This document shows, piece by piece, positions 29,067 through 45,086 of a DNA stretch of 64,000 bases (position 1 is its first letter; each line of letters opens with the position of its first letter). The notes beneath the pieces are model-generated. The model was given only the letters and a program-made list of their open reading frames with translations. It searched no databases and was not told the origin of the DNA. This DNA is from Ensifer adhaerens. GTDB taxonomy: Bacteria; Pseudomonadota; Alphaproteobacteria; Rhizobiales; Rhizobiaceae. A program made the translations under genes and the position numbers. The DNA is taken from assembly GCF_020035535.1 (NCBI RefSeq), contig NZ_CP083351.1, positions 124,001-188,000 on the forward strand. The letters run 5' to 3'.

Positions 29067-30690
29067 TGACCCCCTGGAGGTGCGGACGAATTCTTGGACT
29101 GCTTATGCTGCAATTCCGAGGTTCCGGCGGTATTCCGCGGGGCTAAGGCCACCGAGTGAGATTTTTATGCGATGCTGGTTGTACCAACGGATATAGGAAT
29201 CCACTTGCTGCATGAAGTCGTCAAGCGTCGTATTGATCCAGTCGCGATGGTAGTACATCTCGTTTTTTAGCCGTCCAAAGAAGCCCTCGCAGGCTGAGTT
29301 ATCCGGTGAGCACCCTTTGCGTGACATGGAGCGGGCCAACTGAGCATTGTGCATGCGCGACAGCCAGCCAGGCCAGCGATAATGGGCACCCCGATCAGAG
29401 TGCACAACTGGCCGCTCGGAAAGGCTGATCGTTTCGATTGCGGCATCGAGCATGGTGTTCACGAGTTCTGCGTCTGGACGTGTGCTCACGGACCAACTGA
29501 CAACAAGCCCGTCGAAGCAGTCGATAATAGGCGACAGATACACTTTCCCCGCAGGCAACTGGAACTCCGTGATATCGGTAAGCCACTTCTCGTTTGGCCT
29601 TGCAGCGTGGAAATCACGATTGACCAAATTTTCTGGTGCAGCGTCTAGTTCCCCTTGGTACGACGTGTACCGACGCCGCTTCACGGTGGCGACGACGAGC
29701 TGCTCCTGCTTCATCAGGCGGCGTACGACCTTTTCGGAAACCTGCTCTCCTCTCCTGGTCAGGGCCGCATGAATGCGTCTGTAGCCGTAACAGTTACGAT
29801 TGGCTTCGAAGAGAGACACAATGGTTTGGCGAAGCTCGGCGTATTGGTCATCAAGGCAAAGCAGAGACCGATGATAAAAATAGGAGCTGCGGGCGAACTC
29901 AAGCCGCGTGAGGAGTTCTGGTAACGCATAGATCTGTCTCAGGGCATCAACCAGCAGGGTCTTTTCCCGGTTTGCCAGGAGCCGCAGGTCGATGCCCAGA
30001 TCTTTTTTTATGAGTTCGTTAGCCTTCTTCAGCAGGTCGTGTTCGAGTTGAAGGCGCTGCACATCTCTACGTAGCGCCTCGAGTTCACGCTCGAGTTCGT
30101 CTCGGCTGGCTGTCGGTGGTAATGCGCGACGGCGTGTCATGGATGCAGGGACCTCACGACCAAGTTTCTGGTTCTTCCAGTCGTACAACGTCTGCCGGCT
30201 CACGCCTACCTTCTGAGCCACCGAGCGGGCACTCTCACGCCGAGAGCACAAATCGATCACGGCCGTTCGCTTCTGTTGCTCCGATCTCGGAATAGCGGTT
30301 GCGTTGCTGCTGAGAACTCGTCGCCTGCCATCGGGTTCATATTCGTCGATCCAAGCCGAGAGCTTTCCACGGCAAGGGTAGCCAAGCGCCTTGATGGTCC
30401 ATGCTATGCAACGGCCGTGGCTCAGATAGTGCTCGACGGCAATCCGCTTCTGCTCATCCGAATACCGTCGTTTGGTGCGAATATAACCTGCCGACAAGCC
30501 GGGACCGCGTTCGTACTCGCGGCACCATTGCTTGAGAGCATTCTTCGTCGGATAGCCCAACTGACGGATCGTGGCATTCACGCGTCTACCAAGCTTGATG
30601 TAGAGCTGCACGGCTCTCATGCGGTCTTCGTACGAATACATGAACTATCTCCTGTTAGTCCAAGAATTCGTCCGCACCTCCAGGGGGTCA
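29067..30690 (-). mobile_element. Intact IS3-family element, 1624 bp
   Basis: Bounded by 34-base inverted repeats without mismatch at 29067-29100 and 30657-30690, starting TGACCCCCTGGAGG. The single transposase gene fills the inside. The 3-5 bases outside the two ends do not match, so no target duplication is visible. The right end sits in a phosphoglycerol-transferase relic. Confidence 0.92.
29103..30641 (-). CDS. IS3-family transposase, single open frame
   Basis: 512 residues. Two N-terminal helix-turn-helix repeats (about 5-45 'DRMRAVQLYIKLGRRVNATI' and 60-95 'SDEQKRIAVEHYLSHGRCIA') and a third ('RESARSVAQKVGVSRQTLYD') precede a leucine-zipper-like coil ('LERELEALRRDVQRLQLEHD'). The HTH_21 and rve integrase core has its acidic residues in 'EKWLTDITEFQ', 'VVHSDRGAHYRWPG' and 'NSACEGFFGRLKNEM'. 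Most IS3 members make the transposase by frameshift between two genes; here one uninterrupted frame covers both parts. Probably active. Confidence 0.9.
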   Translation of the reverse strand: MYSYEDRMRAVQLYIKLGRRVNATIRQLGYPTKNALKQWCREYERGPGLSAGYIRTKRRYSDEQKRIAVEHYLSHGRCIAWTIKALGYPCRGKLSAWIDEYEPDGRRRVLSSNATAIPRSEQQKRTAVIDLCSRRESARSVAQKVGVSRQTLYDWKNQKLGREVPASMTRRRALPPTASRDELERELEALRRDVQRLQLEHDLLKKANELIKKDLGIDLRLLANREKTLLVDALRQIYALPELLTRLEFARSSYFYHRSLLCLDDQYAELRQTIVSLFEANRNCYGYRRIHAALTRRGEQVSEKVVRRLMKQEQLVVATVKRRRYTSYQGELDAAPENLVNRDFHAARPNEKWLTDITEFQLPAGKVYLSPIIDCFDGLVVSWSVSTRPDAELVNTMLDAAIETISLSERPVVHSDRGAHYRWPGWLSRMHNAQLARSMSRKGCSPDNSACEGFFGRLKNEMYYHRDWINTTLDDFMQQVDSYIRWYNQHRIKISLGGLSPAEYRRNLGIAA

Positions 30691-31681: not shown

Positions 31682-31711
31682 CTTGACAAAACTTCAGACT
31701 TCAAACAATTT
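31682..31711 (+). promoter_or_regulatory. Possible promoter of the catabolic operon
   Basis: CTTGACA at 31682-31688 is a good alphaproteobacterial -35; CAATTT 17 bases further on is a weak -10. The region 31680-31730 is AT-rich compared with the GC-rich genes that follow, and lies 55-85 bases before the first start codon. Confidence 0.35.
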
Positions 31712-31766
31712 TTAACCCACAAGTAAAGAAATCGCTGAGGGGCGATCCAAAAATCTGGAGGGTTCA

Positions 31767-32816
31767 ATGCTGCAGGAGCGCATTGAAGGGAAGTGGCTTG
31801 CCTGCTTCCGACGGGTCTTCGTGCTCAATGGAATAGGTCCGGGAGCGCGGGTGGCGATCGTGGCGGAAACGCAGTCGCGGCCGGTGCTGGTACAGCTCGC
31901 CGATCTCGCCTGCCATGATCTCGGCGCCGATTACTGCATGGTCACCATGCCCACCCCGCGCCAGACGGCGCCGGTGCCGGTGAAGTCGACCGGCACGTCG
32001 CTCGCCATCCAGGGCAATCGCGCGGCGATCGAGGCCATGAAGCAGTGCGAGATCATCGTCGACTGCACGGTGGAGGGCATGGTCCATGCCGTCGAATGGC
32101 CCGAGATCGAGGCGGCCGGTGCGCGTATTCTCGTCGTCTGCAACGAGCATCCCGAAATCCTCGAACGCTGCGAGCCGACGGCAGAACTCGGCCCCAAGGT
32201 GGCGCTCGGCATCCAAATGCTGCGCGAGGCGAAGGAGATGCGCGTCACCTCGGCCGCAGGCACCGATCTCGTCATCGACCTCAGGGATGCGCCCTGCGGC
32301 GGCACACCGGGTTTCGGCACGACGCCGGGTGCCGTGGCGCATTGGCCGGGCGGCCTGTGCCTGGCCTTCCCTGGCTCGAACACCGTCAATGGCCGCATCG
32401 TCATGGATGTTGGCGATATGAACCTGACCTTCAAGAGCTATCTGACGAGCCGCATCGACTTCACTGTCGAGAACGATTTCGTCAGGGAAATCAAAGGCGA
32501 TGGTTTGGATGCCGAGCTCTTCCGCGACTATATGGAAGCCTGGGAGGACCCGCTGGCCTACGGCTTCTCGCATGTCGGCTGGGGCATGAATCCGACCGCC
32601 CGCTGGGTCTCCGGCGCGCTCTATGACAAGCGCGACATGCAGGCCGTCGAGTTCCGCGCCTGGGCCGGCAATTTCCTCTGGTCCACCGGCGCCAACCAAT
32701 ATGCCGGTCGCTTCACCGAGGGGCATTTCGACCTACCGATGCGCAAATGCACGATCACGCTCGATGGTCGCGTGGTGGTGAAGGAAGGCCGTCTCCAGGG
32801 TGATCTCGCCCTCTGA
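31767..32816 (+). CDS. NicX-like Fe(II) ring-cleaving dioxygenase (M29 fold)
   Basis: 349 residues, GGAGGG 6 bases before the ATG. It belongs to the M29 aminopeptidase-like superfamily that includes 2,5-dihydroxypyridine 5,6-dioxygenase NicX. The metal-site pattern of NicX is recognisable: a central Glu ('LVVCNEHPEILERCE'), a His in 'GFSHVGWGMNPTARW', and H-x-D in 'RFTEGHFDLPMRKC'. NicX-type enzymes open hydroxylated pyridine rings between C5 and C6. First gene of a seven-gene operon with a hydrolase that could take the ring-opened product. A peptidase role is the alternative, less likely given the neighbours. Confidence 0.75.
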   Translation: MLQERIEGKWLACFRRVFVLNGIGPGARVAIVAETQSRPVLVQLADLACHDLGADYCMVTMPTPRQTAPVPVKSTGTSLAIQGNRAAIEAMKQCEIIVDCTVEGMVHAVEWPEIEAAGARILVVCNEHPEILERCEPTAELGPKVALGIQMLREAKEMRVTSAAGTDLVIDLRDAPCGGTPGFGTTPGAVAHWPGGLCLAFPGSNTVNGRIVMDVGDMNLTFKSYLTSRIDFTVENDFVREIKGDGLDAELFRDYMEAWEDPLAYGFSHVGWGMNPTARWVSGALYDKRDMQAVEFRAWAGNFLWSTGANQYAGRFTEGHFDLPMRKCTITLDGRVVVKEGRLQGDLAL

Positions 32817-32838
32817 CCGGATTTGAGAAGGACTGATC

Positions 32839-34149
32839 ATGAGCGAACCTGCAGACTACTATGACCTCTCCCGCACCCGGCCCGAAGTGCTCGATGTGCT
32901 CACCCGCATCAACGAACTTGGCCGCGAACGTTTCGCGCCGCGCGCCAAGGGCGTTGACGACGAGGCGTCCTTCCCTGTTGAGAACTACAGGGATCTTGCC
33001 GCCGAGGGATTTCTGACCCTGACGGTTCCCGAGGAATTCGGCGGCCACGGCTTCAGCCTCGGCGAATATGCCATGGTCGGCGCGGAGATCGGTAAATATT
33101 GCGGCGCCACCGCGCTCACCTTCAACATGCACAACTCCTCCATGATGTGGTCGCGCTTCATGTACGAGCTGCCGAACCTCACCGATGAGGACCGCGCCGC
33201 CTTCGCGCCGCTGCGCGAGCGCCAGTTCCGACGCGCTGTTAAGGAGCAAGGCATCTATTCGCAGCCGATTTCCGAGGCCGGGCAGAACTGGACGTCCAAG
33301 CCCGCGCAGACCTCCTGTCGCAAGGTCGAGGGCGGCTGGAAGATCAACGGCTTCAAGAAGTTCGCCTCGCTTGCCGGCTATTGCGACTACTACTCCATCG
33401 TTTGCACCGAGCATTTCGAGGGCATCGAGCCGCGCCATGAGGACACGATGATCTTCGTCGTCCACAAGGATGCGCCGGGGCTTTCCGTGACGGGCAGCTG
33501 GGATCCGCTCGGCATGCGCGGCACCAACAGCCGCGACTTGATCCTCAAGGACGTCTTCGTCACAGAAGAGGACCTGATGATGCCGCGCGGCATCTTCATC
33601 AAGACCCTGCCGCACTGGCCGCACATGATGGCGACGCTCTCGCCAACCTATATGGGCGTGGCGCAGGGCGCCTTCGATTTCACCGTCGCCTATCTGCGCG
33701 GCGAGGTGCCCGGCCAGCCGCCGGCCGACCGGCGCATGTTTGGCACAAAGCGCCTTACCGTCGGCAAGATGTACACCCAGCTCGCCGCCATGCGCGCGCT
33801 GTGGTGGCAGGCCTTCATGGAAGCGCAGGGCTTTCCAACCAAGGCGCAGGTCATGCGCATGTATGCCGCGCAGTACAATGTCATGGAGGGCGTACAGGAG
33901 ATCGCGGCTCTTGCCATCCGCACCTGCGGCGGCCAGTCCATGCTGAAGACCATGCCGCTGGAGCGCATGTATCGCGACAGCCGCTGCGGCGCGCTGATGC
34001 TCCCCTACACGACCGAGATCATGGAGGACTACCTCTCTGTCCTGACGCTCTACGACATGGACGAGCTCGACAGGGCGCCGGGCGACGAGGGCGGCGCGCG
34101 CTCTTCGCTGTGGCGCGGCACAGGCGGCACGCTCAAGGGGCTGCGCTGA
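32839..34149 (+). CDS. Acyl-CoA-dehydrogenase-fold flavoprotein, probable monooxygenase component
   Basis: 436 residues, AAGGA before the ATG. All three ACAD domains are present: N-terminal helices, a beta domain ('GWKINGFKKFASLAGYCDYY', 'SWDPLGMRGTNSRDLIL') and C-terminal helices ('IRTCGGQSMLKTMPLERMYR'). The usual catalytic Glu of short- and medium-chain dehydrogenases (Y/F-E-G-T) is replaced in 'LMLPYTTEIMEDYL' by Pro. The alternative isovaleryl-type Glu position in 'MATLSPTYMGVAQGA' is also not Glu. This loss, with a flavin reductase in the operon (37470-37976), suggests a class D two-component monooxygenase of the DszC/HsaA type. This is inference. Confidence 0.8.
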   Translation: MSEPADYYDLSRTRPEVLDVLTRINELGRERFAPRAKGVDDEASFPVENYRDLAAEGFLTLTVPEEFGGHGFSLGEYAMVGAEIGKYCGATALTFNMHNSSMMWSRFMYELPNLTDEDRAAFAPLRERQFRRAVKEQGIYSQPISEAGQNWTSKPAQTSCRKVEGGWKINGFKKFASLAGYCDYYSIVCTEHFEGIEPRHEDTMIFVVHKDAPGLSVTGSWDPLGMRGTNSRDLILKDVFVTEEDLMMPRGIFIKTLPHWPHMMATLSPTYMGVAQGAFDFTVAYLRGEVPGQPPADRRMFGTKRLTVGKMYTQLAAMRALWWQAFMEAQGFPTKAQVMRMYAAQYNVMEGVQEIAALAIRTCGGQSMLKTMPLERMYRDSRCGALMLPYTTEIMEDYLSVLTLYDMDELDRAPGDEGGARSSLWRGTGGTLKGLR

Positions 34150-34152
34150 GCC

Positions 34153-35445
34153 ATGGTCGAGGAGCGGGTTCAGGTCATCGGGTTTTCCGCGGCAGAACCT
34201 GCCGCGGTCTGGGCAATCGTCGGCAATTTCTGCGGCGCCTGGCATCCCGTTATCGCGGAGATCCGGGCCGAGCGCGATGAACGCGGCGCGCTGATCCGCG
34301 CCTTCACAGCGAAGGGTGAGGAGACGCTCTACCGCGAACAGCTGACCTACCGTTCCGACACCGACCTTGTGCTCGCCTATACCCATCTCACAGGCATTGC
34401 TGGCGTGGAGCGCTACGACGCCCGGCTTCAGGTCTTTGCCGGCGAGGCGAGCGGCAGCCGCATCGAATGGTCGGCGCAGCTTTCCGCCTCCGCCGAGCGG
34501 GCATTAGCGATTGCCGCCGGCACCCGTGCGATTTTCGAAATGGGCCTTGCTGCGCTTGATGGTCTCGTCGGCGATGCGCGGCCGAACAAGCCAGTTGCTT
34601 CGGAGGACGAAGCGCCCGCACTGCGAACGCTTTTCATCGACGGCAATGCGCAACTCGCGCTGGCCGTCTCGCCGCAGAAGCCAGGCCCGCTCGTGCTGTT
34701 CCTGCATGGCATCGGTGGTGGTCGCGACAATTGGCTGGCACAGCTTCGCGCGGTTGCGCCGACCATGCGGGCCGCCGCCCTCGATCTGCGGGGCTATGGC
34801 GAAAGCCGCCTCGGTGCATCGCCAAGCACGGTCGAAGCCTATTGCGGGGACATCCTGCGGGTCGCCGACGCGCTGGGTGTTCAAAAACTCGTGCTCTGCG
34901 GTCTTTCCTACGGATCTTGGATCGCCACCTCCTTCGCCATGCGTTACCCCGAAAAGCTGGCGGGCCTTGTGCTCTCGGGCGGCTGCACCGGCTTGTCCGA
35001 GGCCAGTGTCGCGGAGCGTGAGGCCTTTCGCACGGCGCGGGAAGCGCCGCTCAATGCCGGCAAGACGCCGGCCGACTTCGCGCCTGCGGTCGTCGATGTG
35101 CTGGCCGGCCCGAATGCCGGGGAGGCGGTGCGCCAGGCGCTCTTTGCTTCCATGGCCGCCATTCCGACCTCAACATATCGGGATGCGCTCGCCTGTTTCA
35201 CCACGCCGCCGGAGCGCTTCGATTTTACCAGGCTCACCATGCCGGTGCTGATGATGACCGGCGAACACGACCGCCTCGCATCCCCGGCCGAAATCCGCGG
35301 CGTGGCAAGCCGGATCGTCGAGGCCGCCCCGCGCGCCTCGGTCCGTTTCGAGGTGATCGCGGATGCCGGCCATGTCTGCAATGTCGAGCGGCCCGAGGCT
35401 TATAACCGGGTGCTCACGGAATTCCTCACGGAGGTCGCGTCATGA
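34153..35445 (+). CDS. SRPBCC domain fused to alpha/beta hydrolase
   Basis: 430 residues in two domains. The first about 150 residues are an SRPBCC (START-like) ligand-binding domain ('VQVIGFSAAEPAAVWAIVGN' to 'ATRAIFEMGLAALDG'-like end). The second, from about 165, is an alpha/beta hydrolase with 'VLFLHGIGGGRDNWLAQL', nucleophile Ser in 'LCGLSYGSWIATSFAM', Asp in 'MMTGEHDRLASPAEI' and His in 'IADAGHVCNVERPEAYN'. NicD, which hydrolyses the product of NicX, is of this hydrolase type. The fusion could hold a hydrophobic substrate next to the active site. It starts three bases after the previous stop and overlaps the TetR gene by ATGA. Confidence 0.85.
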   Translation: MVEERVQVIGFSAAEPAAVWAIVGNFCGAWHPVIAEIRAERDERGALIRAFTAKGEETLYREQLTYRSDTDLVLAYTHLTGIAGVERYDARLQVFAGEASGSRIEWSAQLSASAERALAIAAGTRAIFEMGLAALDGLVGDARPNKPVASEDEAPALRTLFIDGNAQLALAVSPQKPGPLVLFLHGIGGGRDNWLAQLRAVAPTMRAAALDLRGYGESRLGASPSTVEAYCGDILRVADALGVQKLVLCGLSYGSWIATSFAMRYPEKLAGLVLSGGCTGLSEASVAEREAFRTAREAPLNAGKTPADFAPAVVDVLAGPNAGEAVRQALFASMAAIPTSTYRDALACFTTPPERFDFTRLTMPVLMMTGEHDRLASPAEIRGVASRIVEAAPRASVRFEVIADAGHVCNVERPEAYNRVLTEFLTEVAS

Positions 35446-36119
35446 CGGCTCTTCCCAAGCGCCAGCAGAACCGCATCCTGCGCGAGCGCCGCATTCTCGA
35501 CGCCGCCCTCGTCGTCTTCTCGCAGAAGGGTTTCGTCAGCGCCTCGATGGATGACATCGCCGCCGAGGCGGGACTGACCAAGCCGACGCTCTACCAGTAT
35601 TTCCCCTCCAAGGACGAACTCTTCACGGCCATGATGACCGAGGAGCGCGACCACATGCTCGAATCCTTCGAGTATCCCTCCGCGTCCGGCATGGTCGCCG
35701 AACTCTACGCCTTCTCCTGGCACTATGCCGATGTCGTGCTGCGCCCAGATATGCTGAACCTCGCCCGGTTGATCATCGGTGAAGCGCAGCGGCTGCCGGA
35801 TGTCGGCCGCGCCTACCAGGCCTCCGGCCCCGACCGGGTGCTCGCCGGCATGATCGCCTATCTCGAGCGCCAACGCGCGACCGGCCTGATCGTCTTCGAC
35901 GATGCCGAACTGGCGGCGGAGGATCTCTGGGGCCTCATTCTTTCAGCGCCGCGCAACAGGGCGCTGCACATTCCCGATGCCGTGCCCGACCGCGCAACCA
36001 TCGAACGCTATATCCGCAACGGCCTCCGCGTCTTCCTGCGCGCCTATTCCACGGCGCCGGACAAGGACCTTGCCGCCCTTTCATCCCTGACGCCGCCGCC
36101 GGCCACCGCAACGGAGTGA
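35442..36119 (+). CDS. TetR-family regulator
   Basis: 225 residues. The helix-turn-helix is clear at residues 10-56 ('RILDAALVVFSQKGFVSASM', 'DDIAAEAGLTKPTLYQYFPS', 'KDELFTAMM'). The C-terminal ligand domain resembles the AcrR-type TetR_C group ('VLRPDMLNLARLIIGEAQRL'). It lies within the operon, coupled to the hydrolase before it and followed two bases later by the ligase gene. It probably represses the operon until the substrate or an intermediate is bound. Confidence 0.9.
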   Translation: MTALPKRQQNRILRERRILDAALVVFSQKGFVSASMDDIAAEAGLTKPTLYQYFPSKDELFTAMMTEERDHMLESFEYPSASGMVAELYAFSWHYADVVLRPDMLNLARLIIGEAQRLPDVGRAYQASGPDRVLAGMIAYLERQRATGLIVFDDAELAAEDLWGLILSAPRNRALHIPDAVPDRATIERYIRNGLRVFLRAYSTAPDKDLAALSSLTPPPATATE

Positions 36120-36121
36120 CC

Positions 36122-37465
36122 ATGACCCTCGACGCCTATCTCGACGATCCCGCCACCCGTTTCGCCACCGTCGCCATGACCGATACGAACGGCCTGCTGC
36201 GCGGCCAGATGGTGTCCGTGCGCTCGCTCGCCGGCATTGCGCGCGCCGGCATGGGCATGTCGCCGGTCACCTTCGCGCTCGACCCGACTGACGTCGTGCT
36301 GAATATCCCTGGCGTCTCGGACGAAACCTCGGATTTCCACGACGACCCGCTGGTGCTGGATCCCTCCACGGTCCGCCGCCTGCCCTGGTCGAAGCCAGGT
36401 CATGACCTCTTGGTGCTCTCCAACTATGGCGGCGCGACGTCGGCACTTTGCCCGCGTTCGCTCCTGACGCGGGTGCTGGCGCGGGCCGGGGAGGCGGGTT
36501 ATGCGCCGCGCTACGGCATGGAGCTGGAATATACCCTGTTCGACGAGACGCCGGAAAGCGCGCGCGAAAAGGGCTATCGCAACCTCAAGACCGCGACCAT
36601 GCACAAGAGCCACGACCTCGTGCTGTATCAGGTGCAGCAGACGGAGTGGTACGAGGCACTTGCCGAAATCTGCGAGCCGCTGAAGATCGACCTCGCCAAG
36701 ATGCATGAGGAGATCGGCGGCGGCTTCCTCGAAGCCTGCATCGCCGCCGGCACGGGCCTTGAGCCGGCTGACCAGCTCGTCCTTCTCAAGAATTTCGTGC
36801 GCGCACTGGCGCAGCGGCAGGGCAAATGCGTCACATTCATGCCGCGCTGGACGGAGGAGGCCGACAGCCAGTCGATCCACCTCCATGTCAGCCTCATGGG
36901 CAAGGACGGCGGAAAGGTCTTCCACGATCCCGCGGGTAAAAACGGCATGTCGCAGGCCTTCCGCCACTTCATCGGCGGACTGCAGAAATATATCGGCGAC
37001 ATGACGCTGATCTTCCAGCCGAGCGTCAATTCCTACCGCCGCTTCGCGCCCGGCACCTTCGCGCCGCCGGGCCTCACCTGGGGCTTCGAGAACCGCACGA
37101 CCTGCTTCCGCGTCGTCGGTCATGATGCGGGCTCGCTGCGCGTCGAAAACCGCCTGCCGGGCGCCGACACCAATCCTTATCTGACGGTCGCCGCGACCGT
37201 TGCGGCCGGTGTCGCCGGCATCGTCGAGGGCATCGAGCCCGAGCCGGAGGTCATCGGCAACGGCTATGTGAAGGCGGGTGCCGGACCGGATTTCGCCCGC
37301 TCCATGCCGGAGGCGATCCAGCGCCTGCGCAGCTCCAGCTTCGCCAAGGACTGGCTCGGCGAGCGCTTCGTCGAGGCCTTTGCCGCAAGCCGCCAGAGCC
37401 AGCATGACGAATTCTGCAAGAAAGTACCCGATGTAGAACTGCAACGCTTCTTTGACCTGGGGTAA
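36122..37465 (+). CDS. Glutamine-synthetase-like gamma-glutamylamide ligase
   Basis: 447 residues from the ATG at 36122, three bases after the TetR stop with GGAG upstream. Glutamine-synthetase fold motifs are present: 'YGMELEYTLFDETPESARE' (metal Glu residues), 'HEEIGGGFLEACIAAGTGLE', 'SIHLHVSLMGKDGG' (for the G-x-H-x-H loop) and 'RVENRLPGADTNPYLTVAAT' (glutamate site). The sequence belongs with GS-like ligases such as PuuA, IpuC and AtdA1, which join glutamate to amines, not with GlnA. In amine and aniline degradation this step activates the amine for oxidation. The operon context supports such a role. Confidence 0.87.
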   Translation: MTLDAYLDDPATRFATVAMTDTNGLLRGQMVSVRSLAGIARAGMGMSPVTFALDPTDVVLNIPGVSDETSDFHDDPLVLDPSTVRRLPWSKPGHDLLVLSNYGGATSALCPRSLLTRVLARAGEAGYAPRYGMELEYTLFDETPESAREKGYRNLKTATMHKSHDLVLYQVQQTEWYEALAEICEPLKIDLAKMHEEIGGGFLEACIAAGTGLEPADQLVLLKNFVRALAQRQGKCVTFMPRWTEEADSQSIHLHVSLMGKDGGKVFHDPAGKNGMSQAFRHFIGGLQKYIGDMTLIFQPSVNSYRRFAPGTFAPPGLTWGFENRTTCFRVVGHDAGSLRVENRLPGADTNPYLTVAATVAAGVAGIVEGIEPEPEVIGNGYVKAGAGPDFARSMPEAIQRLRSSSFAKDWLGERFVEAFAASRQSQHDEFCKKVPDVELQRFFDLG

Positions 37466-37469
37466 CGCC

Positions 37470-37976
37470 ATGAAACCGGAACTTCGCCTGCAATTCCTCG
37501 AAGGCATGAGCCGCGCCGCAACCTTCGTCGCCGTGGTGACGACGGACGGTGAGGCGGGCCGCTTCGGCGTTACGATTAGTTCCCTCACATCGGTCTCGGC
37601 CGATGGCGAGCATCCCTCGCTGCTCGCCTGCCTCCATCATATGAGCCCGGTCGCCGCGGCGATCCTGAAAAACCGCTCATTCTGCGCCAACCTCCTCCAC
37701 GAGGACCAACATCAGGTCTCCGACCTTTTCGCGGGGCGGCTTTCGGCTGGCGAACATGCCGAGCGTTTCGAGCGCACGCCGTGGTCGGCGGGCGACCTCG
37801 GCCAGCCGGCGCTCGAAGGGGCGACGGCGAGCTTCCAGTGCCAGGTCGCGACCTCGGTGCTCTGGGAAACGCATCACATCATCATCGGACGCGTCATGAA
37901 CGTCCGCTTGTCGGAAAATCCGGCCTCTCTGCTCTATGGCCACCGGGCCTATCACCGGGCGGTTCAACTGCCGTAG
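37470..37976 (+). CDS. Flavin reductase (two-component monooxygenase partner)
   Basis: 168 residues, starting 4 bases after the ligase stop. The flavin-reductase-like FMN-binding split-barrel is visible: 'MSRAATFVAVVTTDGEAGRF', 'GVTISSLTSVSADGEHPSLL' (substitute for 'GxTxSSFxSVSxxPP-L'), 'NRSFCANLLHEDQHQVSDLF' and 'ETHHIIIGRVMNVRLSENPA'. Such enzymes supply reduced FMN or FAD to an oxygenase. The only oxygenase candidate in the operon is the ACAD-fold protein at 32839-34149. Confidence 0.9.
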   Translation: MKPELRLQFLEGMSRAATFVAVVTTDGEAGRFGVTISSLTSVSADGEHPSLLACLHHMSPVAAAILKNRSFCANLLHEDQHQVSDLFAGRLSAGEHAERFERTPWSAGDLGQPALEGATASFQCQVATSVLWETHHIIIGRVMNVRLSENPASLLYGHRAYHRAVQLP

Positions 37977-38052
37977 CGCACATAATAACGAAACGAGGCT
38001 GCGGATGCCGGTGGGGTGAGCCGGCGCGTGGGGAACAAAACTGGAGAGACCA

Positions 38053-39495
38053 ATGACTGACGTGACGACGGCGGGGGTAAACCAACTCCGCAGAAATTCG
38101 CTGGGGCTGATCGCCGTGACCTTCATGGTCATCTCGGCCGCCGCCCCGCTGACAGGCGTGGCCGGCGCGGTGCCCATCGCCTTCCTGCTCGGCAACGGCA
38201 CGGGCATTCCCGCGACCTTCCTTCTGATGACGCTGATCATGCTGGCCTTCTCGGCCGGCTACGTGGCGATGTCGCGCCATGTCACCAATGCCGGCGCCTT
38301 CTATGCCTATGCCGCGCGCGGGCTCGGTGGGCGCATGGCCGGTGCGGTCGCGATCATCGCGGTGGTTGCCTATAACGCCATGCAATTCGGTCTGATCGGC
38401 CTGCTCGGCGGCGTGGCAGCAGGCGTGTTCGCCGGCTTCGGCATCGAATTGCCCTGGTATCTCTGGAGCCTGATCGCCGTCGCGCTCGTCGGCGTCCTCG
38501 GTTATCGCCAGGTCGATCTCTCGGCCAAGGTGATGATCGTGCTGGTGTTGCTCGAATATCTCATCGTGCTGCTGGTCGATTTCGCCATTCTGGGCAAGGG
38601 CGGGGCGGGCACGCTGTCGTTCAATTTCTTCGACACAACCGCCATGTTCTCCGGCTCGCTGACGGCGGCGATCCTGTTCTGTCTCGGCTCCTTCATCGGC
38701 TTCGAGGCGACGACGATCTATGCCGAAGAGGCACGCGATCCGGAAAAGACCATTTCGCGCGCGACCTATTTGTCCGTGTTTATGATCGGCCTGTTCTTCG
38801 TCTTCACGACCTGGCTGATGATTGCCGGCGTCGGCGCCGACAAGCTCCTGCCGACCATCGGCGCGCTGCCGGATCCGACCGCCTTCTTCTTCGATCTCGC
38901 CGGCACCTATGTTGGCGGCCCGGTGCCGGCCATTGCCGGCCTGCTTCTGGTGTCGAGCCTGTTTGCGGCGATCAGCGCCTTCCACAATTACATCGCCCGC
39001 TACAGCTATGTCGCCGGCCGCGAAGGCCTGCTGCCGGCCGCCTTCGGCCGCACGCATGATGCGCACCAGAGCCCGCATGTCGGCTCGGTGGTGCAGACGG
39101 TGATGGCGCTGGTGGTGCTGGCGGTCTTTGCCGGTCTGGGGCTCGATCCGGTGCTCAACATGTTCACCTGGATCAGCCAGGTCGGCACGCTCGGCGTGCT
39201 CGGCATGATGACGATCACCTCGCTCTCGGTCATCGTCTTCTTCCGCAAGAAGGGTGGCGACGCTCTGGTGCTGACGACGCTCATCTTGCCGGCCGTCTCC
39301 GGCTTCGTGATGGCGGCGCTCTTCGTCTACATCTTCATCAACTTCGGCGATCTCACCCAGACTACCGGCGGTTCGCTGGGCATCATCCTGCCGGCGCTGA
39401 TCCCTCTCGCGGGCATTGCCGGCTTCCTGATGGCGAGCCGCCTCAAGGCGTCCGACCCGGCGGCCTATGCCCGCATGGGCCAGAACCGCGGTTAA
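38053..39495 (+). CDS. APC-superfamily amino-acid/amine permease
   Basis: 480 residues with GGAGAG before the ATG and about twelve transmembrane segments. Conserved landmarks are helix 1 'LIAVTFMVISAAAPLTGVAG', 'GYVAMSRHVTNAGAFYAYAA', and 'SFIGFEATTIYAEEARDPEK' of helix 6. It ends the operon, followed by a 10-base-stem hairpin. It probably brings in the amine or amino-acid-like substrate of the pathway. Confidence 0.92.
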   Translation: MTDVTTAGVNQLRRNSLGLIAVTFMVISAAAPLTGVAGAVPIAFLLGNGTGIPATFLLMTLIMLAFSAGYVAMSRHVTNAGAFYAYAARGLGGRMAGAVAIIAVVAYNAMQFGLIGLLGGVAAGVFAGFGIELPWYLWSLIAVALVGVLGYRQVDLSAKVMIVLVLLEYLIVLLVDFAILGKGGAGTLSFNFFDTTAMFSGSLTAAILFCLGSFIGFEATTIYAEEARDPEKTISRATYLSVFMIGLFFVFTTWLMIAGVGADKLLPTIGALPDPTAFFFDLAGTYVGGPVPAIAGLLLVSSLFAAISAFHNYIARYSYVAGREGLLPAAFGRTHDAHQSPHVGSVVQTVMALVVLAVFAGLGLDPVLNMFTWISQVGTLGVLGMMTITSLSVIVFFRKKGGDALVLTTLILPAVSGFVMAALFVYIFINFGDLTQTTGGSLGIILPALIPLAGIAGFLMASRLKASDPAAYARMGQNRG

Positions 39496-39502
39496 GCGTT
39501 TA

Positions 39503-39526
39503 CGGCGCCGGCCTGTGCCGGCGCCG
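39503..39526 (+). terminator. Hairpin ending the catabolic operon
   Basis: CGGCGCCGGC (39503-39512) pairs with GCCGGCGCCG (39517-39526) around a 4-base loop, 7 bases after the permease stop. Very stable but without a long T run. Confidence 0.7.
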
Positions 39527-39533
39527 CTGATCT

Positions 39534-40160
39534 GGTCTGATGGACAGAAGCCGCGTCAGCGGATGCTGCGCATCGGCCAGGCCGTCGATGACGTTGAAAT
39601 GGTGCCTGTCCGGCTCGATGACTTCAGCCGTGGTCGCGCCGAGAGAGACCCGTCCAGATATTGGCGAGCAGCGCGTTCTGCCGCAGGAATTCCGAACGCT
39701 CGTTGCCGCCCACCCAGCAGGTGATGCGGGCATTCCGCATGGGCCGCAGCAAGGCGGGGCTTTCCGCCATTGCCTCCGCCTCGTCGATGGCAAGCCTTGC
39801 ATTCATGGCCGTCGAGAGCATCGGGCGAAGGTCGTGCGACGGTATAACTACTCGCGATCCTGCGGGCGGCCAGATGCGACCACAACTTCTTGTCGAGCTG
39901 AAGCCAGAAGCCGCCATGTACGAAGACGATGAGACCCTTGGGCGTGCCCTCTGGCAAGAAGAGATCGAGGCGGTTGCCCGTCCAGTCGCCTTAAGCGAGG
40001 TCGAGTTTCGCGCGGCCGGCGGCGGCCGTGTTGCGGAAGGTTTCGGCGGGCTCTACCCAGGCGGCCGGCCAGCGGTCATCGCGCGCGATACTCGCACCGT
40101 TGGAATAGGCGTCGTCCCACTCCGAGTCCGGTGCTCCAGCACTGCCGCACTCCCCCTGTG
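39534..40160 (-). pseudogene. Alpha/beta hydrolase (formamidase-like), multiply frameshifted
   Basis: Pieces in three minus-strand frames join in order: 'EWDDAYSNGASIARDDRWPA', 'GDWTGNRLDLFLPEGTPKGL', 'IVFVHGGFWLQLDKKLWSHL', 'VVIPSHDLRPMLSTAMNARL', 'ARITCWVGGNERSEFLRQNA' and 'PDRHHFNVIDGLADAQHPLT'. These are the blocks of the kynurenine-formamidase-like hydrolase family (HGG oxyanion motif, 'GGNER-E', catalytic His near the end). At least three frameshifts and a stop make it dead. Its GC content matches the catabolic operon just upstream. Confidence 0.85.
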
Positions 40161-40694: not shown

Positions 40695-41078
40695 TTAGTT
40701 CCGTGAATTGCCAGCCAAATGCAACAGAGCCCCTGCCTTTTCAGCGGCTACCCGCAGCCGCTTGTCTCTGGTCCACAAAGTGGCTCGATGATCAAGGAGA
40801 ACTGAGGCCAGCAAATGGGCATCTGTGTAGCCAATGCCCATGCTGAAAATGGCGTGCCGATCAATCATCGTCATGACTTCGTCATGGGTTGCGACGAGCG
40901 CCTCACGCTGAGCCGCCAGGACGGCCAAGACGTTACTGCGGTCGCGAAGGCTGCCAAGTGCCAGTTCGCCAATCACAGCGGGATGGCAGAGGAGAAGATC
41001 GTCTTCAATAATCCTGCGCAACTCACCATCGGCATGCCGAAAATGATCAATCCAGATTGAGGTGTCTGCAAGTATCAC
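40695..41078 (-). CDS. vapC: VapC PIN-domain toxin
   Basis: 127 residues. PIN acidic residues are seen in 'MILADTSIWIDHFRHADGEL' (Asp5), 'HPAVIGELALGSLRDRS' (Glu) and 'MGIGYTDAHLLASVLLDHRA' (Asp), with 'TRDKRLRVAAEKAG' closing the site. VapC toxins are Mg2+-dependent RNases. Overlaps the vapB stop by ATGA. Intact. Confidence 0.93.
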   Translation of the reverse strand: MILADTSIWIDHFRHADGELRRIIEDDLLLCHPAVIGELALGSLRDRSNVLAVLAAQREALVATHDEVMTMIDRHAIFSMGIGYTDAHLLASVLLDHRATLWTRDKRLRVAAEKAGALLHLAGNSRN

Positions 41079-41275
41079 TTGGCTGCTGCGCTCCTGCGGC
41101 GTGGGGCTGCCTCCGCATTCGGCATAGTTCCCCCGAGCGCGATGAGGCGTTTTCCGGACTCCACCCGAACAAGTGTCTCTAACGCCTGCCGAACCAAGGC
41201 GGAGGTTTCCTTCGTGCCGGTCAGGGACTTGGCTCTTTCTATGAGAGTATCATCGAGGTTGATAGTCGACCGCAT
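41075..41275 (-). CDS. vapB: VapB antitoxin
   Basis: 66 residues, 'MRSTINLDDTLIERAKSLTG' with 'TSALVRQALETLVRVESGKR' and a short basic tail. This is the DUF2191-type VapB, a ribbon-helix-helix-like repressor and toxin inhibitor. It precedes and overlaps vapC. Confidence 0.92.
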   Translation of the reverse strand: MRSTINLDDTLIERAKSLTGTKETSALVRQALETLVRVESGKRLIALGGTMPNAEAAPRRRSAAAK

Positions 41276-41448
41276 AATTTGGATCCTTATTTTCCGGCGT
41301 TACGAATAGCACCAATTGGTGATGATATCTACGCCTGCGCATGGACCGAATTCAAGATGCTCTAAAGAAGGCAGTCCGGTGAATTCTCAAGCGAACAGAA
41401 CGCTCGCATTCCCATAGCTTGTGGGGAGGTCGCGTCCTGTTCCGGGTC

Positions 41449-41561
41449 GGGAGATCCTAACTGAAGTGCAACACGTCGGTTTAGGGTAGGGTTCAGCATC
41501 CATCTTGCAAATGTGCCCGGAACGCTTCGGCCGGTGTTCTGTAGTCGAGGCACTTTCTCGG
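41449..41561. mobile_element. IS30 end fragment, diverged
   Basis: The 26-base terminal repeat (41449-41474) is the same as at 5479-5504. The following ~85 bases encode the last codons of the transposase on the minus strand but carry several substitutions and small gaps relative to the two other copies. A remnant of a related, older element. Confidence 0.8.
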
Positions 41562-41601
41562 TGACCTGCCACGGGCAATTTCCTCCAGATGGGATTGACC
41601 G

Positions 41602-41643
41602 AGCTGAAGTCGGGGGTTGCTCTGGATTGGCCGGAGCCGAGCC
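41602..41643. repeat. Second copy of the IS110-associated 40-base repeat
   Basis: Matches 27988-28027 with one extra T. No transposase start follows here. It abuts the IS30 fragment. Confidence 0.65.
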
Positions 41644-41826
41644 GAACTAGAGAGTTCACGTTGAAATTACGATCCATGCTCATGGATATATGATCAAGGA
41701 TTGGCATATTGATTATCTTTGAATGTCCAGCTTAATTCTTAGATGGCGAGCCGCGCGTCTCGGGCGCATCACCAACGCGGCTGCAGCATTTGGGTTCGCT
41801 GGTTTTGCTCACGAGGAAGTATCCAG

Positions 41827-42754
41827 TCAAAGTCCTACTGGGGCACTGTCAATGTATCCGTCAAACGCGTAGTCGTTTAGGAACTGACGCCGCCAAAAAA
41901 ACGTCCGATCGACCCGGCTAAGTTCCGCTTCATCGCAAATTTCACCCCACGCGCGTCGGATGCCCTCGATCAGGCCATCAATGCAGGCCCGCGCGTCCTT
42001 GTCGCTGAGAAGAAATGACGGTGCGGAGAGCCGGCAAAGCTCTATCTGGCTCCGCTTGTCGCCCTCATGAATGAGCATCGCTTGGCTTGCTTCTCGCCCC
42101 GATCGTGATTGAGGGCATATATCGTAAGCTGGCGTCAGGGAGAGGCGACTACCGTCCCAAAAAGCGGCGTGGTTGCGGGCATGGTCATCCGTGTTGCCGA
42201 CGAGGATGTTGAAGACCATTCGGTTGAACAGCTCACGCAAGGTCGGCTGTGGTTGTGAGAAGCGTGCGCGAACGATTTCCGCCAAATCAATGTAGCTGGC
42301 ATAGCGCGCCTCCATTTCCGAAAGCCCAAGAACTGTCAGCGCGGAGGCCATGGCACGTCGCGCCCAACCGTGCTTGCCACGTTCACGATCAAAGCGGCGC
42401 ACGAGCAATACGTCTTTGCCATTGGCTTTTGCCAATTGCACCGGTGCCACATTCAATCCAGCCACTTCGGCTAGTCGCATCGCCACATACTCCGCCTTTA
42501 CCACCGCATAGGTGTCGTTTGTCGCGGAGAATTTGGCTATGTACTTCTCGTTCTTTCGGGCGGGCGCCGCCGATGGAACTTCCATGAAACAATGCCTTCT
42601 CAAGGGCCGGCGGAATTGGCTCCCCGCGATCGACACGCTCTGCAGCTTCGAGCATTTCCTCAAGCGTGGCATTCTCTTGTTCGCGAGACACGTAACGTTC
42701 GGCTGTAGCCTGAAAGTCGAGCGCCCCTATCCGGTCCGAGCCGGAATGAAGCAT
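41827..42754 (-). pseudogene. HipA-family kinase toxin, frameshifted and 5'-truncated
   Basis: The 5' part in one frame reads 'MLHSGSDRIGALDFQATAER' and 'ALEKALFHGSSIGGARPK'. Near 42565 the frame changes, and the kinase core follows: 'EKYIAKFSATNDTYAVVKAE', 'NGKDVLLVRRFDRERG', 'FNRMVFNILVGNTDDHARNH' (catalytic and metal residues) and 'LTPAYDICPQSRSG'. HipA toxins phosphorylate tRNA synthetases. The first ~100 residues and any hipB partner are missing. The intact kinase half could be expressed only by chance. Confidence 0.85.
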
Positions 42755-43972: not shown

Positions 43973-45086
43973 GGTACATTCTAATTTGAAGTGCGACATG
44001 CCAATGATTTCAATGGTTTCCCCCTGGAGATTTTGGAATGTCCCGACGCTATTCGCAGCTGAATCTGGCCGATCGACGCCGCCTCTTCCACTTTGTCGAA
44101 CGCAAAGTGCTGATCAAAGAAATGGCGCGCGAACTTGGTCGTCATCGATCGACGATCTACCGTGAGATCCGGCGCAACACCTTCCACGATCGCGAGCTGC
44201 CCGACTATAGCGGTTACTTCCCAACCGTTGCTGACGACATCCGCAAAGAGCGGCGGCAGCGTTTGAGGAAGCTCGTGCGGCACCCGCAATTGCGCGAATT
44301 GGTGATCGAGCAGCTGAAGGCACTTTGGTCACCGGAACAGATTGCCGGTCGTCTGCTCGCCGATGGCGTGAGCGCCGTGCGGGTCTGCACCGAGACGATC
44401 TATCGCTGCATCTACGGCAAGGACGATCAGGCGCTGGAGCTCTATCAGCATCTGTCGGAAGGCCGCCGCAAACGCCGCCCCCGCGGCTCGAGGAAGCCGC
44501 GCGACGGCACTTTTCCGGCTGCCTGCAGGATATCGCAACGTCCTGATTTCATTGGTGATCGTTCGCAGTTCGGGCATTGGGAAGGCGACTTGTTGATCTT
44601 CCAACGTGACCTGGGCAACGCCAACGTGACCTCACTAATCGAACGCAAGAGCCGCTACACCGTCATGATCAAGAACCACAGCCGGCACTCGCGGCCGATC
44701 ATGGACAAGATCATCGAAACGTTCTCTCCCTTGCCAGCCTTTGCCCGGCAGAGCTTCACCTTTGATCGCGGCACGGAGTTTGCCGGCTTCAGGGCTTTGG
44801 AAGATGGTATCGGCGCGCGGAGCTGGTTTTGCGACCCCAGTGCACCGTGGCAGAAAGGTGCCGTGGAAAACATCAACAAGCGCATCCGTCGGTTCATGCC
44901 AGGCGATACCGATCTTGCAGGCGTGTCGCAACGCAAGCTCATCCAGCTTGCTCGCCATCTCAACGACCAGCCGCGAAAGTGCCTCGACTACCGGACGCCC
45001 GCCGAAGTGTTCCGCGCACATTTGCAAGAGGGAGGCTGAACCCCTACCCTGAAAACCGGCGTGTTGCACTTCAGTTAGGATCTCCC
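43973..45086 (+). mobile_element. Intact IS30-family element, about 1.1 kb
   Basis: The right inverted repeat is at 45061-45086 (GTGTTGCACTTCAGTTAGGA then TCTCCC). The left repeat at about 43973-43999 is imperfect (core TTTGAAGTGCGACAT against CTGAAGTGCAACAC). One full transposase gene lies inside. Target duplications of 2-3 bases cannot be judged. Confidence 0.88.
44038..45039 (+). CDS. IS30-family transposase
   Basis: 333 residues, full length. The N-terminal helix-turn-helix ('MSRRYSQLNLADRRRLFHFV', 'IKEMARELGRHRSTIYREIR') is followed by the rve DDE core, with acidic residues in 'GHWEGDLLIFQRD', 'SFTFDRGTEFAGFR' and 'WQKGAVENINKRIRRFMPGD' (Glu). The C-terminal 'LARHLNDQPRKCLDYRTPAE' is the IS30 end motif. 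Likely active. The same element exists truncated at 5479-6386. Confidence 0.95.
   Translation: MSRRYSQLNLADRRRLFHFVERKVLIKEMARELGRHRSTIYREIRRNTFHDRELPDYSGYFPTVADDIRKERRQRLRKLVRHPQLRELVIEQLKALWSPEQIAGRLLADGVSAVRVCTETIYRCIYGKDDQALELYQHLSEGRRKRRPRGSRKPRDGTFPAACRISQRPDFIGDRSQFGHWEGDLLIFQRDLGNANVTSLIERKSRYTVMIKNHSRHSRPIMDKIIETFSPLPAFARQSFTFDRGTEFAGFRALEDGIGARSWFCDPSAPWQKGAVENINKRIRRFMPGDTDLAGVSQRKLIQLARHLNDQPRKCLDYRTPAEVFRAHLQEGG

Follow-up and report, generated by a model that had tools for sequence, protein, structure and literature searches.

What do seven tightly packed genes of Ensifer adhaerens do together, when their current annotations as peptidase M29, acyl-CoA dehydrogenase and glutamine synthetase are all probably misleading? 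The genes lie in a stretch of 64,000 nucleotides (hereafter the window) of a 736-kb contig that belongs to an 8.1-Mb genome, and form seven uninterrupted plus-strand open reading frames (ORFs), here lettered A to G, that span positions 31767-39495. An earlier note on this DNA proposed that they import, glutamylate, hydroxylate, open and hydrolyse a single amine-bearing aromatic or N-heterocyclic substrate. Our analysis suggests that the operon encodes a hitherto undescribed way of opening an aromatic ring that contains nitrogen. As the note had supposed, no description of this gene set was found in the open-licence literature, outside which most subscription papers lie. The seven genes, their order and the families that the note had named were borne out by the ORFs, by Pfam and, for A, by a PDB match:

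31767-32816, plus strand: A, NicX-like non-heme iron dioxygenase, 349 aa (PDB 7cn3 NicX, E 2e-57)
32839-34149, plus strand: B, flavoprotein of the acyl-CoA dehydrogenase (ACAD) fold, 436 aa (Pfam Acyl-CoA_dh N, M and 1)
34153-35445, plus strand: C, SRPBCC domain fused to an alpha/beta hydrolase, 430 aa (Pfam Polyketide_cyc2 and Abhydrolase)
35442-36119, plus strand: D, TetR/AefR-type regulator, 225 aa (Pfam TetR_N and TetR_C_7; co-occurrence with a palindrome)
36116-37465, plus strand: E, glutamine synthetase (GS)-like amine ligase, 449 aa (Gln-synt_C, 277.8 bits)
37470-37976, plus strand: F, flavin reductase of the RutF/HpaC type (Pfam Flavin_Reduct; start per RefSeq of W2-A p1)
38053-39495, plus strand: G, APC-family amino acid/amine permease, 480 aa (Pfam AA_permease_2)

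The intergenic gaps measure 22 bp (A-B), 3 bp (B-C), 4 bp (E-F, with the RefSeq start of F) and 76 bp (F-G), while C and D overlap through ATGA and D and E through GTGA. The operon DNA is 100% identical, at equal coordinates, in the 736-kb plasmid p1 of E. adhaerens W2-A; the RefSeq annotation of that identical block places the start of E 6 bp later. For F, an alternative TTG start upstream at 37452 is also open.

The earlier note had left room for the genes occurring together only by chance, and the wider distribution of the operon spoke to this. We scanned an alignment of A against one genome per species, obtained at least 526 confirmed relatives and fetched the best 80 (58-97% identity). 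Because contig ends cut several shorter loci, counts over these 80 are lower bounds for the closest set, and they are uninformative on the at least 446 other relatives. All seven genes stood in the order A-B-C-D-E-F-G in 31 of the 80 loci (F free in 23 and fused in eight), A-E were retained in 53 and A-B-C in 68. F, free or fused, was present in 45 of the 53 A-E loci, and some of the remaining ones were cut by contig ends. Nine of the 80 kept A-D without E despite at least 7.8 kb of sequence beyond A, and the E-less loci L089 and L103 have another GS-like gene close by. The 12 loci without A-B-C were L111-L118, which count as A only at our 35% filter (seven actinobacterial loci and L112 of Pusillimonas, whose hydrolase scores below that filter), L105 with A only, L104 with A and C, and L082 and L100, which end at contig edges. 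More distant relatives of A (48-53%) occurred in eight of 101 sampled related genomes; near A, seven of these eight loci carry a B relative together with a hydrolase that matches just the hydrolase half of C, seven carry a CoA ligase, and TRAP-type transporter genes adjoin in five. These results confirmed that the seven-gene set is a conserved unit, widespread in Rhizobiales, Rhodobacterales and some marine lineages and found in many soil and water bacteria. In the actinobacterial metagenome-assembled genomes (MAGs) of L111 and L113-L118, A (59-60%) is followed by a CoA ligase, without B or C, and, where the contig extends, by beta-hydroxyacid-dehydrogenase-like and aminotransferase-like genes.

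A second line of evidence came from the leader of the operon, in which two features were located:

31683-31688, plus strand: TTGACA, -35-like hexamer of the operon promoter, read from the sequence, with a weak -10
31711-31728, no strand assigned: predicted operator of D, TTTAACCCACAAGTAAAG, two mismatches to CTTWACT-N4-AGTWAAG

Promoter prediction on the window called no promoter at the operon start. The conserved leader begins with TTGACA in all eight aligned sequences (the window and seven relatives), and DNA farther upstream diverges. The palindrome CTTWACT-N4-AGTWAAG recurs in the leader across genera, usually between -28 and -66 relative to A, with a few copies as distant as -175. When up to two mismatches are allowed, 57 of the 67 loci with D have it in the 200 bp before A, whereas the 1,529,076 other positions (1.53 Mb) contain two matches. 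It was also found in three of 15 loci without a visible D (L082, L100 and L101, all cut short); two loci had too little upstream DNA to be counted. At no more than one mismatch, 16 of 19 genomes or records had one site, one had two and two had none, while a reversed control pattern gave 0-9 matches per genome or record; in G109 the site lies on a different contig from the operon. The genome that holds the window has six sites, each with two mismatches and the window's included, compared with 48 matches to the control pattern. From the joint occurrence of gene and palindrome, D very probably serves as a local repressor dedicated to the operon. The second site of G113 (locus L142) precedes an MFS transporter gene, and MFS relatives lie near the operon in L094 and L047, as do genes for an HDAC-like deacetylase and a LuxR-type regulator, both assigned by eye; no NCBIfam model matched the HDAC-like and MFS neighbours of L094.

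A is the gene on which the chemistry turns. It had no Pfam or NCBIfam match, but its AlphaFold2 model (pLDDT, the model's own confidence score, 81) matched NicX in Foldseek (7cn3, E 1.8e-35) with template-modelling (TM) scores of 0.85-0.88 to 7cn3 and 7cup, the next fold matches being M29-type aminopeptidases at TM 0.52-0.59. According to passages of PMC7910607, the Fe(II) ligands of NicX are His265, Ser302, His318 and Asp320, and Glu177 contacts N1 and O1 of 2,5-dihydroxypyridine. The earlier note had staked its reading of A on the iron-binding residues, and all four are present in the alignment (H269, S306, H320 and D322 in A); they recur in every ungapped row among 76 close relatives, one row being gapped at three of them. 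The equivalents of NicX His105 and His189 (H107 and H192) are likewise found in 76 of 76, but the His105 site is Phe in four of six nic-type rows and therefore no family-defining residue. The substrate-binding position is different: Glu177 is replaced by Thr (T180 in A) in all 76 close relatives, by Gly or Ser in all eight of L111-L118 and by Val or Ile in the seven distant relatives aligned, whereas the four nic loci have Glu there and the relatives from Terrarubrum and Rhodococcus have Gln. NicX Glu308 is also replaced, by Tyr. Judged from these residues, A probably shares the NicX mechanism and yet is predicted to be no 2,5-dihydroxypyridine dioxygenase.

Compared with the nic cluster of Pseudomonas putida KT2440, the operon thus resembles it in the fold, the four iron ligands and the two His equivalents of A, and in a nearby hydrolase gene, as with nicD. 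It differs in having B and F instead of a NicC-type hydroxylase, in adding a GS-like ligase and an APC permease, and in the SRPBCC domain on its hydrolase. Furthermore, nicE-type genes (Asp/Glu racemase family) and nicF-type genes (isochorismatase family or N-carbamoylsarcosine amidohydrolase) were present in all four true nic loci compared, but are absent among the seven genes of the operon. Given the change from Glu177 to Thr and the missing nicE and nicF, the operon is not a copy of the nicotinate pathway, and the parallel that the earlier note drew with NicX-then-NicD on 2,5-dihydroxypyridine fell away.

Two-component flavin monooxygenases of the ACAD fold include HpaB/C, DszC/TdsC and IacA-like enzymes, and B and F may form such a pair. 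At the position that we take to be that of the catalytic Glu in short- and medium-chain acyl-CoA dehydrogenases (SCAD/MCAD), the B family reads LMLP(Y/W)T in 14 of 14 rows, close and distant, and B has no Glu either at what is presumably the catalytic site of isovaleryl-CoA dehydrogenase (IVD). L386, M387, L388, P389 and T391 of B are invariant in 30 rows. The fold neighbours of B are ACADs, in which monooxygenases (5z8t, TdsC and DszC) and nitrososynthases (DnmZ and KijD3) mix with dehydrogenases. At L112 a class A aromatic hydroxylase that uses flavin adenine dinucleotide (FAD) stands in for B downstream of A and the hydrolase (PRK06126, 567 bits; RebC, E 3.6e-82), and Terrarubrum has an HpaB-type gene ahead of a NicX relative and a flavin reductase close to them. 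B lacks the dehydrogenase Glu, is paired with a reductase and gives way to a ring hydroxylase elsewhere, from which we infer that B is the oxygenase partner of F and would hydroxylate the ring. B resembles the known two-component enzymes in lacking that Glu and in the flavin reductase of its operon; it differs in that its best database matches are dehydrogenases and 5z8t/5gj7.

In 10 loci the F counterpart, encoded after E, carries a C-terminal LysR effector-binding domain without the DNA-binding part (L027, L048, L049, L051, L054, L055, L057, L058, L061 and L099), as judged by full-length matches and, for L027 and L099, by Pfam. p-Hydroxyphenylacetate hydroxylase has an effector-gated reductase, and by analogy the fusion suggests a substrate-gated supply of flavin. 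Two indole oxygenases were considered as parallels for B and rejected: those of Acinetobacter piscicola (PMC11434297) and A. baumannii (PMC4577076) are styrene-monooxygenase-like and not ACAD-like. ACAD-family indole oxidisers are mentioned in general terms in the latter paper (PMC4577076).

In C, residues S252, D373 and H407 each recur in 95% or more of 70 sequences and by their positions form a putative catalytic triad. In E, the flap motif reads GTFAP compared with GYEAP in GlnA of the same genome, so that the flap Glu is lost; a 2024 eLife paper (PMC11335346) describes the same loss in the GoaS amine ligases (NpaA1, AtdA1, TdnQ and others). E matches NpaA1 (8wwu) over residues 11-433 with an E value of 7.4e-33 and glutamate-methylamine ligase (9qur) with 6.7e-27, while the best of the other GS-like chains reaches 3e-56. 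A homology search found 915 proteins among 7995 scored, and the names in the best 120 say glutamine synthetase and nothing else. Judged by its flap, E is probably not a normal glutamine synthetase and is predicted to be an amine ligase; it shares with the GoaS enzymes the GS catalytic domain and the lost Glu, but is distant from them in sequence, and its operon has no Rieske dioxygenase.

Taken together, these predictions outline a pathway. D would repress the operon, and G would import an amine- or amino-acid-like substrate. F would reduce flavin, with which the ACAD-fold oxygenase B would hydroxylate an N-heteroaromatic ring. A would then cleave the ring beside the new hydroxyl using Fe(II) and O2, a chemistry carried over from NicX, C may hydrolyse the N-formyl or acyl product, and E may join the released or starting amine to glutamate. 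We regard the general scheme, in which D represses a catabolic operon for the opening of a nitrogen heteroaromatic ring, as fairly probable. Hydroxylation, ring opening and hydrolysis, as the earlier note had them, remain the best reading of B with F, of A and of C. Its placement of E as the enzyme acting first on the same substrate is less well supported, nine loci having A-D and no E.

Where the product goes is suggested by neighbouring and co-occurring genes. Of 84 loci, 11 (from Shinella, Rhizobium, Mesorhizobium, Rhodobacter, Tabrizicola, Ascidiaceihabitans and one Rhodobacteraceae MAG) have within 10 kb a CoA ligase of the benzoate or, as we take it, 2-aminobenzoate type that shares at least 76% identity with the Shinella copy; in L054, L073, L083, L094 and L110 it begins 68-157 bp after G. 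Against TIGR02262 (cut-off 375.25) the Shinella ligase scores 374.2 bits, just below, and the copy in the genome of the window 378.1. Of 38 genomes or records in which the operon includes E, 37 encode PRK08255 (salicylyl/anthraniloyl-CoA 5-hydroxylase), 36 of them above the cut-off, and that of L097 alone does not; by comparison, it was detected in three of 12 with E-less loci and in none of 14 well-known control genomes. In a 198-genome family sample it was present in eight of the 12 genomes with A and, among the 186 lacking A, in 60 (one-sided Fisher p 0.019). The genome of the window carries PRK08255 on another replicon, C2, at 1690174 (1350 bits), together with kynureninase and, at C2:1704840, a CoA ligase 90% identical to that of Shinella. 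A tryptophan 2,3-dioxygenase match of at least 375 bits exists in 15 of the 20 genomes or records searched for it, 13 of the matches being above the cut-off; it was seen beside the operon in Shinella loci only. The ligase neighbours and the co-occurrence of PRK08255 give moderate support to an anthranilate-type exit. The aerobic 2-aminobenzoyl-CoA (anthraniloyl-CoA) pathway, to which PRK08255 belongs, is linked to E-bearing operons by co-occurrence and by the ligase type; it differs in being a separate gene cluster, none of whose enzymes is encoded in the window operon. Next to L088 is a cluster that includes PRK08255 (1270 bits) and genes assigned by eye to thiolase, hydroxyacyl-CoA dehydrogenase and enoyl-CoA hydratase. 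In the distant locus L028, visual inspection had suggested a kynureninase, which was not confirmed.

For E-bearing operons, the product would most likely enter the anthraniloyl-CoA pathway, an exit that we propose tentatively. If it does, the substrate would therefore most likely be of the indole or quinoline type, derived from tryptophan and giving anthranilate, although any single named substrate is quite improbable. In its specific form the proposal is a new aerobic route for benzo-fused N-heteroaromatics (indole or quinoline), in which B hydroxylates, A with its rebuilt pocket opens the N-ring, C frees anthranilate and some lineages gate the flavin supply through the LysR domain; we consider this possible but on the doubtful side. 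If true, it would extend NicX chemistry past pyridine. The explanation as a whole is the best that we have, though somewhat less likely than not to be right in full. The operator, the anthraniloyl-CoA link and the fusion of a sensor domain to the flavin reductase go beyond the earlier note. From the operon come a predicted pair of regulator and operator, a branch of the NicX family whose pocket has changed and a handful of candidate substrates; it could also explain the use of dissolved N-heterocycles by these bacteria.

Several observations weigh against this proposal. The predicted activities rest on sequence and models. The palindrome was counted in the very loci that had supplied its consensus, from which the window's own copy departs at two positions. 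Dehydrogenases top the VIA-align list for B and are also its nearest relatives by sequence. PRK08255 is present in 51 of 101 relatives regardless, so that its presence with the ligase in the genome of the window is a weak criterion; its statistics ignore shared descent, related genomes not being independent, and in the first PRK08255 set of 20 genomes or records, 11 were chosen for a nearby ligase. The ligase itself may serve the kynurenine pathway only, and an indole route gives E no evident task. Other neighbours point elsewhere: a gentisate-dioxygenase-like cupin lies upstream in 25 of the 80 loci (the Aminobacter copy scores 305 bits against TIGR02272, cut-off 442), genes that we take to be mgsABC-like (GATase, GXGXG and Glu_synthase) lie beside A in four of 84 (L050, L067, L095 and L104), and a homoprotocatechuate-dioxygenase-like gene with pathway partners is found in L054, L065 and L089. 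An anthranilate exit leaves these gentisate-type, mgsABC-like and homoprotocatechuate neighbours unexplained. Among the 25 cupin loci, 24 also have an FAH protein, 22 a second flavin reductase and 15 a nitrilase-like gene; a P450 paired with a second GS-like gene occurs near A in L060, L077, L085, L089 and L103. Such varied neighbours could reflect a module used for several compounds, or else an N-methylpyridine as its substrate.

In the latter case, a route for homarine- or trigonelline-like compounds, B and F would hydroxylate, A would cut beside the ring N, C would remove formate, and E would glutamylate the freed methylamine, followed by N-methylglutamate chemistry. The mgsABC-like genes fit this route, as do the genes for OYE-like oxidoreductase and aminomethyltransferase that L027 and L121 have next to the operon, the space that Thr in place of NicX Glu177 leaves for an N-substituent, the amine-ligase type of E and the numerous marine carriers. 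However, all four mgsABC-like loci lack E, the glutamate-methylamine ligase matches E worse than the best GS-like chain does, and the link to the CoA ligase and PRK08255 would go unexplained, so we consider the route unlikely, if worth keeping in view. Our literature search found no paper on a homarine gene cluster, which does not prove that none exists. At L104 (6857-11047), the mgsABC-like genes lead directly into A and then C, without B. Glutamylation might instead come first, E acting on an aromatic amine, as in aniline and 1-naphthylamine degradation, before hydroxylation, ring opening and hydrolysis. The lost flap Glu and the match to NpaA1 agree with this order. A Rieske dioxygenase acts after glutamylation in aniline-type pathways, but none is encoded among the seven genes, and A-D are kept without E in nine loci with ample sequence; we judge this order about as unlikely as the N-methylpyridine route.

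If B were a true acyl-CoA oxidoreductase, a ring acid would be handled as its CoA thioester before or after cleavage by A. AMP-forming CoA ligases adjoin A in 11 of 84 close, seven of eight distant and seven actinobacterial loci, and the dehydrogenases that lead the VIA-align list agree with such a role, but B lacks Glu at both known catalytic positions, an FAD hydroxylase replaces it in L112 and the window operon itself has no ligase, all of which makes this explanation less likely still. Ordinary nicotinate-type degradation of 2,5-dihydroxypyridine with some extra genes would account for the NicX homology, the iron ligands and the hydrolase neighbour; it is very improbable in view of the Thr shared by all 76 close relatives, where four nic loci have Glu and the Terrarubrum and Rhodococcus relatives Gln, and of the nicE- and nicF-type genes that all four nic loci have and the operon lacks. 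Finally, the block sits amid insertion sequence (IS) elements and toxin-antitoxin genes on a megaplasmid, as a chance neighbourhood of unrelated genes might, but gene order and operator are conserved over many genera, which refutes this explanation and leaves it a negligible probability.

In contrast to the window as a whole (58.8% G+C), the operon has a G+C content of 64.8%. Whole-block DNA identity is about 86% in Shinella PSBB067 and Sinorhizobium RAC02, and Aminobacter aminovorans pAA02 shows 74% DNA identity across 89% of the block. An IS3 transposase gene lies upstream at 29103-30641, and a VapBC pair, a HipA-like gene and an IS30 transposase gene lie downstream at 40695-42672 and 44038-45039 (names per RefSeq of the W2-A plasmid). 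An Rfam scan of the whole window returned no family at the gathering threshold. Two further features follow G:

39504-39525, plus strand: GC-rich hairpin with a 9-bp perfect stem and no T-run
39545-40125, minus strand: disrupted alpha/beta hydrolase remnant (NCBIfam HSL family), with tblastn pieces spread over three frames at 54-88% identity

The hairpin is absent from the window's list of predicted terminator-like sites; a GC-rich hairpin stands 3' of G in all seven close relatives examined, mostly differing in sequence. Sequence related to the remnant seems to extend to about 40296. By its context, the remnant would be formamidase-like: an intact HSL-family hydrolase gene is found at the matching position in Shinella, beside the CoA ligase and tryptophan 2,3-dioxygenase genes. 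Because the remnant is of the hydrolase of that locus, the operon block was probably derived from a Shinella-like locus. An intact HSL-family hydrolase gene is also present in the genome of the window, on C2 (locus L119).

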